From Adhaeribacter swui (lineage in GTDB: Bacteria; Bacteroidota; Bacteroidia; Cytophagales; Hymenobacteraceae): a stretch of 64,000 nucleotides of DNA. The notes beneath the pieces are model-generated. The model was not told where the DNA came from and searched no databases. It worked only from the letters and a program-made list of their open reading frames with translations. The DNA is taken from the NCBI RefSeq assembly GCF_014217805.1, contig NZ_CP055156.1, positions 2,362,585-2,426,584 of the forward strand, read 5' to 3'. A program made the position numbers and the translations under genes. Shown piece after piece: positions 11,919-15,427 of the stretch (position 1 is its first letter; each line of letters opens with the position of its first letter).

Positions 11919-12050
11919 AGAGAATGGATAGACCCAGATTGGAAAACGTGCACTAGTAAATTAGAAGTAAGGGAATTAGACTATAGATGAACTAGAATAG
12001 AGGAAAACAAACCCGGTAGCACCTGCTCATCAAATTTTAAAAAACAGCTT

Positions 12051-12093
12051 AAAACAAAAACGGTCGCTTAGATAAAGCGACCGTTTTTGTTTT
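12051..12093 (-). terminator. Terminator of the phenylalanine/tyrosine operon
   Basis: A perfect 19-bp stem (AAAACAAAAACGGTCGCTT at 12051-12069 with 12075-12093) and a 5-base loop. It is flanked by A/T runs on both sides, so it can act in either direction. Confidence 0.85.
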
Positions 12094-12108
12094 AAAAAAA
12101 ATAATAGA

Positions 12109-13230
12109 TTAAGCCTTGGCAGCTTGCTCTTGTTTATTTAAAACTTCTGTTTGAATATTGATGGAATATTGGTGAATGCTTTGCAGAACAGATTTCATGA
12201 AAGTCTCATCCAAACCATTTTTACGAGCGTGCTCTAAGCGGTCAGCAATAATTTGGTCCCAACGTTTTACCTGGTAAACAGTCATGTTGTGCGCTTTTTT
12301 GTACTCGCCAATTTTGCGCGATAAGCGGGCGCGACGGGCAAATACTTCTACCATTTCGTCGTCCAGTTCATCAATTTGCTTCCGCATTTCGTCGAGTAAG
12401 TGGTGATCGTCTTCGGCTAATTCTTCGCCTTCGGGCTTCCGGAAACGGATGCTGGCTAACATTTTGCCTAAGTTTTCCGGGGTTACCTGCTGGGCCGCAT
12501 CGCTCAACGCTACCGATGGATCAATGTGGGTTTCGATCATTAAACCGTCCATAGCTAAGTCCATTGCTTTTTGCGCAACCGGCAATAATAACTCGCGGTT
12601 ACCGGCAATGTGGCTTGGGTCGCAGATTAACGGAATTTCGGGCAATAGGCGCTTGAACTCAATGGCGCTGTTCCATTTTGGTAAGTTGCGGTAAGGCGCA
12701 TTATCGAACGTAGAGAAACCACGGTGAATAGCACCAATCTGGCGCAAACCAGCCTGGTTTAAACGCTCAATCGCACCAATCCATAATTGTAAATCGGGGT
12801 TAACCGGGTTTTTAACCAATACCGGAATATCAGTGCCGCGTAAAGCATCGGCAATTTCCTGTACCGTGAAAGGGTTAACTGTAGTACGGGCACCAATCCA
12901 CATTACATCTATACCAGCTTTTAACGATTCGTACACGTGCATGGCATTAGCTACCTCGGTAGCTACCCGCAGACCAGTTTCAGCTTTTACTCTTTTTAAC
13001 CATTTTAAGCCGGGTACACCTACACCTTCAAATGAATTAGGCCGGGTACGGGGTTTCCAGATACCAGCCCGGTAAATATTTACGCCCGGAATTGCTTTAA
13101 TGCCGTGGGCAGTGGCCATTACTTGTTCCTCCGACTCGGCGCTGCAAGGGCCAGCAATAATAAGCGGAGATCCGTCTGCATTGATTAAAGCAGATTCGGT
13201 CAGGACATCGATTTGAGGTTTAGGGCTCAT
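12109..13230 (-). CDS. aroF: Bifunctional DAHP synthase / chorismate mutase (type II)
   Basis: 373 residues. The N-terminal part (about 1-265) is a DAHP synthase of the KDO8P-synthase-like class. It shows IIAGPCSAES, YRAGIWKPRT, NPVNPDLQLW and CDPSHIAGNR, and makes DAHP from phosphoenolpyruvate and erythrose 4-phosphate as the first shikimate step. The C-terminal part (about 275-355) is an AroQ-type chorismate mutase (DEMRKQIDELDDEMVEVFARRARLSRKIGEYK, shown in pieces), converting chorismate to prephenate. The start at 13230 gives an ATGA overlap with the stop of the upstream aminotransferase; the longer ORF to 13296 would overlap that gene deeply. It is the last gene of the operon before a strong terminator, and no prephenate dehydrogenase gene follows. 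Confidence 0.93.
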   Translation of the reverse strand: MSPKPQIDVLTESALINADGSPLIIAGPCSAESEEQVMATAHGIKAIPGVNIYRAGIWKPRTRPNSFEGVGVPGLKWLKRVKAETGLRVATEVANAMHVYESLKAGIDVMWIGARTTVNPFTVQEIADALRGTDIPVLVKNPVNPDLQLWIGAIERLNQAGLRQIGAIHRGFSTFDNAPYRNLPKWNSAIEFKRLLPEIPLICDPSHIAGNRELLLPVAQKAMDLAMDGLMIETHIDPSVALSDAAQQVTPENLGKMLASIRFRKPEGEELAEDDHHLLDEMRKQIDELDDEMVEVFARRARLSRKIGEYKKAHNMTVYQVKRWDQIIADRLEHARKNGLDETFMKSVLQSIHQYSINIQTEVLNKQEQAAKA

Positions 13231-14402
13231 TGTGTAACAGTTAAAAAGTGATGAATATTTTGAATTGCTTGATTTATGTTTTCTTCTGTAGCGCAAACCG
13301 ATACGCGCACGTACCGTTCGCCGTTTGATCCGAATATTTTGCCGGGTGTTAAAAACACGTGGGCTTCATAGAGTATGGTGTTTAAAAAAGCTTCTACATC
13401 CTTTATTTCGTCAGGCACCCGGGCCCAGACAAACATGCCCGTAGCTTCGGTAGTGTATTTACAACCTAGTAAATCCAGTAACCGGTAAATTAATTCCCGC
13501 CGGCGATGATAAACAGCATTTCGTTCGGCGTGCCAGCTTTCCGGATTTTGCAAGGCCTCAATGGCGGCTTGCTGCACCGGCAAAAACATACCCGAATCTA
13601 AATTACTCTTTATCGTAATAATCGCGTCTATATACTCTTTTTGCCCCAGTACCATACCTACCCGCCAACCGGCCATATTAAACGATTTGCTTAACGAGTT
13701 AAGTTCCAGGCAACAATCCATTGCTCCCGGTGCATGCAAAATACTTACCGGTGGTTTGGTGTTGAGTACCAGGCTATAAGGGTTGTCGTGTACAATTAAA
13801 ATGTTGTTAGTTTTGGCGAAATCGATAATTTTTAAAAAATCAGCTTCGCTGGCTAAAGCGCCCGTGGGCATATTCGGGTAGTTTAGCCACATAAGTTTTA
13901 CCCCACTTAAATCCTGCTGATTTAAAGCTGCTAAATCGGGTAGCCAGTTGTTTCCGGCGGTTAAATCAAAATAAACCGGTTCGGCACCAACTAACTTGGT
14001 AACGGCGGCATAGGCCGGATAACCCGGGTTCGGAATTAATACTTTATCGCCGGGGTTTAAAAAAGCCAGCGAAATATGAAATACGCCTTCTTTAGATCCC
14101 AGCAATGGCAATACTTCCGTTTCCGGATTCAGGGTAACATCATACGTTTGAGCATACCAATCGGCCATGGCAGTGCGCAGCGCTGGAATAGAGCGGTATG
14201 GCTGGTACCCGTGGCTGGTAGGCAATTCTGCCGAAGCAGTAAGGGCCTGCACGGTATTTTCGGAAGCCGGTAAGTCCGGATCGCCAATGCCCAGGTTTAT
14301 TATTTTTTTGCCTTGGGCCATTAAAGCGCGTACTTCGGCTAGTTTGCGGGCAAAGTAGTATTCTTGTACTTCGTTCAGCCGGTTTGCTTTGGCAATAATC
14401 AT
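13227..14402 (-). CDS. Class I/II PLP-dependent aminotransferase (aromatic/prephenate branch)
   Basis: 391 residues of fold-type I. The PLP lysine is K239 in NSLSKSFNMAGWRVG. Other family marks are NLGIGDPDLP near the N-terminus, NPGYPAY, WLNYPNMPTGA and the late RVSVC (arginine for the substrate carboxylate). It lies between prephenate dehydratase and DAHP synthase-chorismate mutase, with 1 base to the former and a 4-base overlap with the latter. The likely role is therefore transamination of phenylpyruvate or prephenate to form Phe/Tyr. Sequence alone does not separate this from an aspartate or LL-diaminopimelate type enzyme. Confidence 0.88.
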   Translation of the reverse strand: MIIAKANRLNEVQEYYFARKLAEVRALMAQGKKIINLGIGDPDLPASENTVQALTASAELPTSHGYQPYRSIPALRTAMADWYAQTYDVTLNPETEVLPLLGSKEGVFHISLAFLNPGDKVLIPNPGYPAYAAVTKLVGAEPVYFDLTAGNNWLPDLAALNQQDLSGVKLMWLNYPNMPTGALASEADFLKIIDFAKTNNILIVHDNPYSLVLNTKPPVSILHAPGAMDCCLELNSLSKSFNMAGWRVGMVLGQKEYIDAIITIKSNLDSGMFLPVQQAAIEALQNPESWHAERNAVYHRRRELIYRLLDLLGCKYTTEATGMFVWARVPDEIKDVEAFLNTILYEAHVFLTPGKIFGSNGERYVRVSVCATEENINQAIQNIHHFLTVTQ

Positions 14403-14403
14403 G

Positions 14404-15234
14404 TTACTTTTTGGCTCTTTTGTAAATACCCAAAATTTTCATTTCCACAATCAGCGGCGTAATTAAACCAATCGCTTCTTCAAAAGTGGTATAATCTTCC
14501 CATTCCAGATCCAGTAAAATGGCAAACTCGGTTGGCCGGCTCAAGATTGGAATAGACTGAATCAAAGATAAGTTGATGGATACATCCCGGAAAACATCTA
14601 AGATTTTAGCCAGTTCGCCGGCGCGGTGATGTAGCGTGAAAATAACGGAAGCCTTGTTTGCCTGGCTTTTATCGGCAAGCGGCTTCCGCGATATAATCAT
14701 GAAACGGGTATAATTTTCTTTATAATTTTCAACGCGTTCTTCTACAATCTCTAACTCGTAGCGCTGGGCGGCCATTTTACTGGCAATAGCGCCTACTCCC
14801 ACTAAGTTATTTTCCCGGATTTCGCGGGCACTTTCAGCCGTGTCCGCTGATTCTAAGGCCTGGATGTGCGGATTTTCTTCTAAAAAGTTGGTGCACTGTA
14901 ACAAAGCCATGGGGTGCGACCGCACTAATTTTATATCAGCCAAAGATTGACCCGGTAACGCCAATAAATTTTGTTCGATAGGTAAGTAAGCTTCCCCAAT
15001 AATAGATACCGGATAATCCTGCAACAGCGAATAATTTCCCAGAATGCTGCCGGCTAGGGCATTTTCAATAGCCATCACCCCGAAATCAACCTCGCGGTTT
15101 TTTACGGCGGCGCATACCCGCTGAAAAGTCATGCACGGAACAATCTCGATGGCTTGACCAGCAAAATACTGCTGCGCCACTACATCGTGGAAAGAAGCCG
15201 GGCCACCTTGAATCGCTATTTTTAAAGTACTCAT
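14404..15234 (-). CDS. pheA: Prephenate dehydratase with ACT domain
   Basis: 276 residues. It converts prephenate to phenylpyruvate. The periplasmic-binding-like catalytic domain (about 1-185) opens IAIQGGPASFHD and has the active-site block YTRFMIISRK near 176-185. A C-terminal ACT domain (about 195-275) contains GELAKILDVFRD and a LIQSIPILSRP stretch, the usual phenylalanine feedback site. It is the first gene of a three-gene operon. The start codon lies only a few bases after an intrinsic terminator in the leader, so expression should depend on read-through (see attenuator and leader peptide). Confidence 0.94.
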   Translation of the reverse strand: MSTLKIAIQGGPASFHDVVAQQYFAGQAIEIVPCMTFQRVCAAVKNREVDFGVMAIENALAGSILGNYSLLQDYPVSIIGEAYLPIEQNLLALPGQSLADIKLVRSHPMALLQCTNFLEENPHIQALESADTAESAREIRENNLVGVGAIASKMAAQRYELEIVEERVENYKENYTRFMIISRKPLADKSQANKASVIFTLHHRAGELAKILDVFRDVSINLSLIQSIPILSRPTEFAILLDLEWEDYTTFEEAIGLITPLIVEMKILGIYKRAKK

Positions 15235-15240
15235 AATTTT

Positions 15241-15270
15241 AAAAAAAAAGCCCCGAATTTTCGGGGCTTT
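15241..15270 (-). terminator. Attenuator terminator of the phe/tyr operon
   Basis: On the minus strand: AAAGCCCCGAA, a 2-base loop, TTCGGGGCTTT, then an unbroken U tract. It ends about 6 bases before the pheA ATG and after the leader peptide ORF. An intrinsic terminator between promoter and first gene is the hallmark of transcription attenuation. Confidence 0.88.
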
Positions 15271-15311
15271 GGAGTTTTATATTTTGTTAAGCTAAACGCA
15301 ATACTTTTCTC

Positions 15312-15383
15312 TTAAGACCCCTGCGAGGTGCTAAAAAAATAGTAGTAAAAGTAAAAAGCGTTTGTTACTTGTTTCATTCTCAT
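15312..15383 (-). CDS. Phe/Tyr leader peptide of the pheA operon
   Basis: A 23-residue ORF (ATG AGA ATG ... TCT TAA) whose centre reads FYFYYYFF: eight consecutive aromatic codons, four Phe and four Tyr. It lies between the predicted promoter and the attenuator of the operon that makes Phe and Tyr. A ribosome stalling here when charged tRNA-Phe or tRNA-Tyr is short would change the fold of the downstream RNA. The segment GGGGTCTT over the leader stop can pair with AAAGCCCC, the left arm of the terminator, with one mismatch. It is therefore a candidate antiterminator. A second in-frame ATG at 15377 is an alternative start. There is no good Shine-Dalgarno, which is normal in Bacteroidota. Confidence 0.85.
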   Translation of the reverse strand: MRMKQVTNAFYFYYYFFSTSQGS

Positions 15384-15396
15384 TTACTTGACGACC

Positions 15397-15427
15397 CAAT
15401 ATTAAAGAAGGATTTTTTAAGATGCAA
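15397..15427 (-). promoter_or_regulatory. Promoter of the phe/tyr leader
   Basis: Minus strand: TTG (15427-15425), 20-base spacer, TAATATTG (15404-15397), 7 of 8 to TAnnTTTG. Transcription would start only some ten bases before the leader peptide ATG. Confidence 0.55.

Follow-up and report, generated by a model that had tools for sequence, protein, structure and literature searches.

A putative attenuator with a phenylalanine- and tyrosine-rich leader stands before aromatic amino acid genes in most Bacteroidia examined

What decides whether RNA polymerase enters the aromatic amino acid operon of Adhaeribacter swui? To our knowledge, amino acid control in Bacteroidota has been little studied. 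Leader-peptide attenuation is a classical principle, and in the window (the whole stretch of 64,000 nucleotides that was analysed) the minus strand ahead of pheA carries a promoter-like site, a short ORF with a run of Phe and Tyr codons and a terminator, in that order. We conclude, with a probability of roughly 93%, that this arrangement is a ribosome-mediated (leader-peptide) transcription attenuator of the operon. Its parts are the following.

15425-15427, minus strand: TTG, a -33-like element, 20 nt ahead of the -7-like box
15397-15404, minus strand: TAATATTG, a -7-like box of the TAnnTTTG type with one mismatch
15312-15383, minus strand: leader ORF, ATG...TAA, 23 codons, MRMKQVTNAFYFYYYFFSTSQGS
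15358-15363, minus strand: AAACGC, part of segment 1, with GCGTTT as partner in the predicted fold
15333-15356, minus strand: FYFYYYFF, eight Phe/Tyr codons, the proposed control codons
15314-15321, minus strand: GGGGTCTT, segment 2, the proposed 5' arm of the antiterminator, overlapping the stop TAA (15314-15312)
15294-15299, minus strand: GCGTTT, the partner of segment 1 (predicted fold)
15247-15270, minus strand: intrinsic terminator hairpin, AAAGCCCCGA/TCGGGGCTTT, -16.4 kcal/mol
15241-15246, minus strand: T tract running on from the terminator stem

The sequence-only reading from which we started had described a promoter-like TTG-N20-TAATATTG, a 23-codon ORF with the run FYFYYYFF and an intrinsic terminator whose T tract ends just before the pheA ATG, and all three were borne out: the promoter-like pair lies on the minus strand at 15427-15397, the terminator stem has 10 pairs, 6 of them G-C (left arm 15270-15261, right arm 15256-15247), and 6 nt separate the end of the T tract (15241) from the ATG (15234). 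The leader start was refined. Since in L005-L008, loci of the same genus, the only start codon lies at the position of the second ATG, 15377 (a GTG in L005), this start, giving 21 codons (MKQVTNAFYFYYYFFSTSQGS), appears likelier than 15383. The leader region folds more stably than its dinucleotide shuffles (z -2.49; 3 of 200 shuffles do as well), and GCGT is kept in 16 of 17 family sequences (alignment A2).

Behind the terminator stand three genes and a second hairpin.

14404-15234, minus strand: pheA, prephenate dehydratase (NCBIfam NF008865, 189.5 bits, cut-off 219)
13227-14402, minus strand: aminotransferase, LL-diaminopimelate aminotransferase-like (NF006756, 421.4 bits, cut-off 507)
12109-13296, minus strand: bifunctional DAHP synthase/chorismate mutase (NF009239, 198.2 bits, cut-off 279)
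12049-12095, minus strand: terminator-like hairpin of 20 pairs with a T-rich tail, after the DAHP synthase gene

The three gene names stand for strong matches below the curated cut-offs and are used here as probable assignments. The listed TTG start of the DAHP synthase/chorismate mutase gene at 13296 overlaps the aminotransferase gene, and an internal ATG near 13230 is likelier; the hairpin at 12095-12049 is probably the end of the operon. The genome has one PheA copy. Its tyrA lies far from the aromatic operon (L185:1453-2349), and an aromatic leader was looked for at this tyrA and not found.

The proposal that transcription starts next to the leader, giving an almost leaderless message, calls for a milder wording. 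A promoter-like pair was scored where a box matched TAnnTTTG at 5 or 6 of 6 positions and TTG stood 17-27 nt ahead of it, the box consensus being that given in the available sections of PMC9723704. Such a pair recurs upstream of the leader at 70 of 96 loci, compared with 13% of composition shuffles, and in 58 of the 70 it ends 15-24 nt ahead of the start taken for the leader. Taken by itself the -7-like box says little, since 58% of shuffles contain it as well as 87 of the 96 loci. In the window the box lies 13 nt from the first ATG and 19 nt from the second, so that 'almost leaderless' was an overstatement and 'short 5' UTR' is the better description. The same sections of PMC9723704 report for Flavobacterium psychrophilum a median 5' UTR of 24 nt with leaderless mRNAs at 5.5%, and describe the phylum as lacking Shine-Dalgarno sequences; against that median the 5' UTR predicted for the window is short but not exceptional.

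The first reading had staked itself on finding the aromatic run and the terminator again in close relatives. They are there: the leader occurs in 8 of 8 members of the genus and in all 26 family members with a PheA match, while in 11 further family genomes a PheA match was not found. Altogether 41 of 59 genomes, the window's own included, have a PheA match; the leader is present at 27 of the 30 best matches (12 weaker ones were left out), and L011, L017 and L028, from other families, are the three of these 30 without it. We also examined 80 named loci, chosen by similarity as the best 80 matches of a species-genome scan, which we take to span Bacteroidales, Flavobacteriales, Sphingobacteriales, Chitinophagales and Cytophagales, plus a KSB1 MAG. 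Leader and terminator precede pheA in 73 of these best 80 loci, and a leader with a terminator occurs at 6 other places across their 820 kb (both strands). One of the 6 also heads an aromatic operon: in L032, a Caldithrix MAG, a Phe/Tyr leader (MKSLKNTFYYYGYYYYFGGWCSDSQ) at L032:330-407 with its terminator, 4.6 kb further upstream, heads a DAHP synthase-aroA-aroC-tyrA-pheA cluster whose first three genes score above curated cut-offs and whose tyrA scores below. L077 and L084 show, before pheA, weaker aromatic ORFs accompanied by a terminator. No aromatic leader ORF was found before pheA in L036, L039, L046 and L090, though L039 and L090 have a terminator-like hairpin there. Three MAGs labelled Legionellaceae (L043), Sericytochromatia (L084) and Bdellovibrio (L090) have Bacteroidota-like pheA regions, through mis-binning or transfer.

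These positions bear on the idea that an independent small RNA or small protein gene, with no part in pheA control, ends in this hairpin as its ordinary terminator. What is directly visible, a short unit flanked by a promoter-like site and a terminator of its own, would suit such a gene, but its place at the head of pheA in most of the best named loci, its recurrence in L032 before a differently ordered aromatic operon and the partner-specific antiterminator described below make this extremely improbable.

Because the 80 named loci had been chosen by similarity, a phylum sample was added, in which 128 of 148 genomes have PheA. All 33 PheA loci of the window's class were examined and 29 carry leader and terminator; the four with no leader within 1,000 nt (L143, L146, L149 and L150, in genomes G132, G167, G070 and G151) fall in two genera. 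From the other classes 37 of 95 PheA loci were examined, mostly one per genus and with nearly all very long fused frames omitted, and three have the leader (L121, L127 and L139, in G123, G072 and G189), a count to be read with the fact that for part of the 37 loci the true gene start may lie well upstream, where a leader more than 1,000 nt away would escape, and that L183 offers 309 nt of upstream sequence only. A further match at -710 in L174, which has no terminator, was left out of this count. The PheA scores of G123, G072 and G189 are high and Bacteroidia-like, which suggests transfer of the leader together with the operon, operon and attenuator perhaps moving as one. The Phe/Tyr leader device thus stands before aromatic genes in most Bacteroidia examined.

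Such a run is rare within the genome. Its 6.2 Mb hold eight Phe/Tyr codons in a row, (TWY)8, at 3 places (4 overlapping matches): the Phe/Tyr leader, a pyrimidine tract and a Leu-rich, signal-peptide-like run. The second (TWY)8 site was considered as another leader and rejected, as it is out of frame in the Leu-rich run. A class-wide (TWY)8 search was discarded as evidence: among the matches listed many were simple repeats, and control counts were similar. We also scanned both strands of the 64 kb window for ORFs that hold 6 or more aromatics within 9 codons and have, no more than 150 nt further on, a hairpin with a T-rich tail and an energy of -9 kcal/mol or better. Ten aromatic-rich ORFs were found, and only the Phe/Tyr leader has a qualifying hairpin; the runner-up, 43012-42950 on the minus strand, has one of -8.6 kcal/mol.

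Which amino acid would such a leader sense? Across the relatives 109 distinct runs were compared, and both Phe and Tyr codons are present in 109 of 109, together 455 Phe, 398 Tyr and 22 Trp codons, with at least 2 Phe and at least 1 Tyr per run and a median Tyr share of 44% of Phe plus Tyr. Trp sensing was considered and rejected: a Trp codon is found in 22 of the 109 runs but makes up 22 of 875 aromatic codons, and this share falls below the expectation from general proteome composition. The run sequences are diverse (FYFYYYFF, YYFGYFYYF, FYFSFYFF, FGYFYGFYFFWY), and the order and number of Phe and Tyr codons vary between lineages. Runs that differ so much and yet all hold Phe and Tyr fit sensing of codon supply better than a peptide motif. 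This also bears on the alternative that the leader is a nascent-chain arrest peptide, of which TnaC is an example, sensing free aromatic amino acids rather than a shortage of charged tRNA. The nascent chain is indeed aromatic-rich, and some short stretches are kept within groups. However, Phe and Tyr interchange even inside one genus (FYFYYYFF, FFFYYYFF, YFFYYYFF, FYYYFFF), unlike an arrest motif, the remainder of the peptide differs between orders, and a biosynthetic operon would be expected to open on shortage and not on excess. We regard an arrest peptide as highly unlikely.

Sensing of Phe by the leader is likely, and the role of Tyr has to be judged with the genes that follow. Operon content was assigned by blastp in a downstream stretch of up to 5 kb (some shorter) for the best 80 named loci. 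Among these, 28 read pheA-aminotransferase-tyrA-DAHPS/CM, 37 have pheA-DAHPS/CM without aminotransferase and tyrA, 5 share the window's order, pheA-aminotransferase-DAHPS/CM, and 10 are other or incomplete. TyrA was found downstream in 33 of the 80 and exceeds the curated cut-off in L037, L048, L052 and L057, the four scanned; in L058 (Pedobacter) AroA and AroC, both above curated cut-offs, follow DAHPS/CM. The enzyme common to nearly all leader-headed operons is DAHP synthase, which feeds Phe and Tyr alike, and for this reason we infer that one leader may sense both amino acids.

It is also possible, though we think it unlikely, that the attenuator answers to phenylalanine alone, the Tyr codons being tolerated or kept for RNA pairing. 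In its favor, pheA is the first gene and tyrA lies outside the operon in the window's genome, TyrA was not found within the downstream stretch of up to 5 kb in 47 of the best 80 named loci, and Tyr codons sit in the predicted 1:2 helix, so that some of them, as the modelled fold has it, may be structural. There is a precedent too: the aroR leader of Corynebacterium glutamicum, upstream of aroF, reportedly responds to Phe limitation and not to Tyr, according to the portions of PMC11802643 available to us. Against Phe alone stand the presence of Tyr in every one of the runs, at a median of close to half of their Phe and Tyr codons, the 28 loci whose operon includes tyrA, and the TyrA scores above the cut-off in the four scanned loci.

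The sequence-only reading had further claimed that a segment over the leader stop can pair with the left arm of the terminator. In the window GGGGTCTT and AAGCCCC form seven pairs with one bulged U, GGGG and CTT pairing with CCCC and AAG around it; at -10.3 this is weaker than most. In the family alignment A2 the terminator core is nearly invariant and hence uninformative on the antiterminator. The pairing was tested in an alignment-free manner, by pairing the segment after each aromatic run (the search starting at the end of the run) with its own terminator left arm and with the arms of other species. The test used 109 rows, 6 of 115 having been dropped beforehand: one ORF with no hairpin better than -3.3 kcal/mol, a second reading frame that overlaps the first in L034, the row of L031 (its genome is that of L007) and three rows that duplicated others within the segments compared. 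Segment 2 binds its own arm with a mean of -14.56 kcal/mol, compared with -10.48 (sd 0.26) for permuted arms (0 of 5,000 permutations), and segment 1 with the middle segment gives -19.89 for own and -14.62 for permuted partners (0 of 5,000). In the median row 9 of 108 foreign arms bind segment 2 better than its own arm does, as is expected because relatives share a terminator arm. When each of the 37 terminator-arm cores was represented by a single row (2,000 permutations for each of 20 random picks), the result was 0 of 40,000, at a z of about -10.6; permutations treat the sequences as exchangeable, and core clustering lessens relatedness without removing it. Starting the search 24 nt before the leader stop (106 rows), which misses leaders passing segment 2, also gave 0 of 5,000. 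Examples of matched arms are the following.

AAGCCCCG paired with GGGGCTC
AAGTCCCGG paired with CCGGGACT
AAGGTCTCGA paired with ACGAGACTT
AGGCCTCCC paired with GGGAGGTC
AGGGCCCCGC paired with AGCGGGGCCC
TCCCGCTC paired with AGAGCGGG

The claimed pairing is thus partner-specific across species, and these comparisons of sequences support an alternative, putative antiterminator that draws on sequence close to the leader stop. In 92 of the 109 rows no more than about 12 nt separate segment 2 from the stop, and the median distance of segment 2 from the first aromatic codon is 37 nt (109 rows), a spacing that fits a stalled ribosome.

We propose that transcription would begin a short way ahead of the leader ORF. 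As long as charged tRNA-Phe, and probably also charged tRNA-Tyr, is plentiful, the ribosome would reach the leader stop and cover GGGGTCTT, leaving the terminator left arm free for the right arm, and transcription would stop before pheA. If charged tRNA were short, the ribosome would stall within FYFYYYFF and disrupt the pairing of segment 1, while segment 2, 35 nt past the first aromatic codon, would stay free and could capture the left arm of the terminator while the right arm has yet to be transcribed. Polymerase would then enter pheA, the aminotransferase gene and the DAHP synthase/chorismate mutase gene. Folding predictions place a constraint on this scheme. In the transcript that ends at the terminator loop, the antiterminator forms when an assumed ribosome footprint is placed on aromatic codon one, four or seven; placing the footprint over the stop codon removes it, a result built in by the masking of the bases concerned. 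When no ribosome is present, the minimum-energy form of the same transcript is again the antiterminator, so a protecting 1:2 helix, in which the Tyr codons are predicted to participate, would have to form ahead of it. The full RNA favors the terminator for all ribosome positions tried, and the choice would therefore have to be kinetic.

How does this element compare with known systems? Rfam RF01859, Phe_leader, is the enterobacterial pheA attenuator. Over its whole length (1-125) the model fits the window at 40.6 bits, below the threshold of 55, with an E-value of 1.2e-05 that holds for 281 bases only. The two are alike in having a leader and then a terminator before pheA, whereas the window's element differs in its mixed Phe and Tyr codons, its Bacteroidetes-type promoter-like site and its multi-gene operon. 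At the gathering threshold the Rfam scan of the window returned only two tRNA genes, with no leader family, T-box or riboswitch, and ten related loci showed no Rfam family. The Bacteroid-trp motif is a trp leader attenuator. This motif (RF01692), tabulated in the pages of PMC2864571 available to us as a likely cis-regulatory RNA of Bacteroidetes, has no match in the window, nor, at the gathering threshold, in the ten related loci.

The nearest functional precedent is C. glutamicum aroR, which according to the portions of PMC11802643 already cited has a Phe-Tyr-Phe leader that acts on a DAHP synthase operon by ribosome stalling; aroR differs in its short run and belongs to another phylum. The same portions state that Escherichia coli pheA responds to Phe-charged tRNA. 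Closer to the window, the available sections of PMC9723704 report strong clues for leader peptide attenuation ahead of amino acid operons in F. psychrophilum and name no operon or residue; these candidates may include a relative of the Phe/Tyr leader element. Leader-like sORFs of Bacteroides thetaiotaomicron are mentioned in the accessible text of PMC7366714, and neither 'Bacteroid' nor 'pheA' occurs in that of PMC2965389. The sequence-only reading was thus right in kind, and the element is a well-supported attenuator whose principle is known. A search of the open literature, outside which most subscription papers lie, yielded no description of its Phe/Tyr form, spread through the class, or of its tandem form. 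Some Bacteroidetes attenuators may have been predicted in a 2004 survey by Vitreschak and colleagues. What the present element adds is a compact Bacteroidia device with a testable logic, in which one leader may read two amino acids and some lineages may place gates in series, as well as a set of natural variants for the timing of the race between ribosome and polymerase where the ribosome starts on a very short 5' UTR.

The tandem form was found at 13 of the 96 loci, where two leader-terminator units stand in series before pheA. Six belong to the window's family (L014, L016, L018, L019, L022 and L030) and are presumably Hymenobacter-like. Tandem units are present in all five Chitinophaga among the best 80 named loci (L052, L054, L083, L086 and L103), in the Saprospiraceae MAG L082 and, more weakly, in the Bacteroides-labelled MAG L035. 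The stop of leader 1 and the start of leader 2 are separated by 82-107 nt. Segment 2 prefers its own terminator over that of the neighboring unit in 21 of 26 comparisons, the five exceptions being the first leaders of L014, L016, L018 and L030 and the second leader of L082. We see even odds that an ancestral two-amino-acid switch of Bacteroidia was doubled in several lineages into serial, separately antiterminated gates. If so, stalling at Phe or at Tyr codons would alike open the common aromatic pathway, and in the doubled lineages (Chitinophaga, the Hymenobacter-like group and the Saprospiraceae MAG) polymerase would have to pass two starvation checks.

Two leader ORFs with terminators are likewise present in L145 (genome G095).
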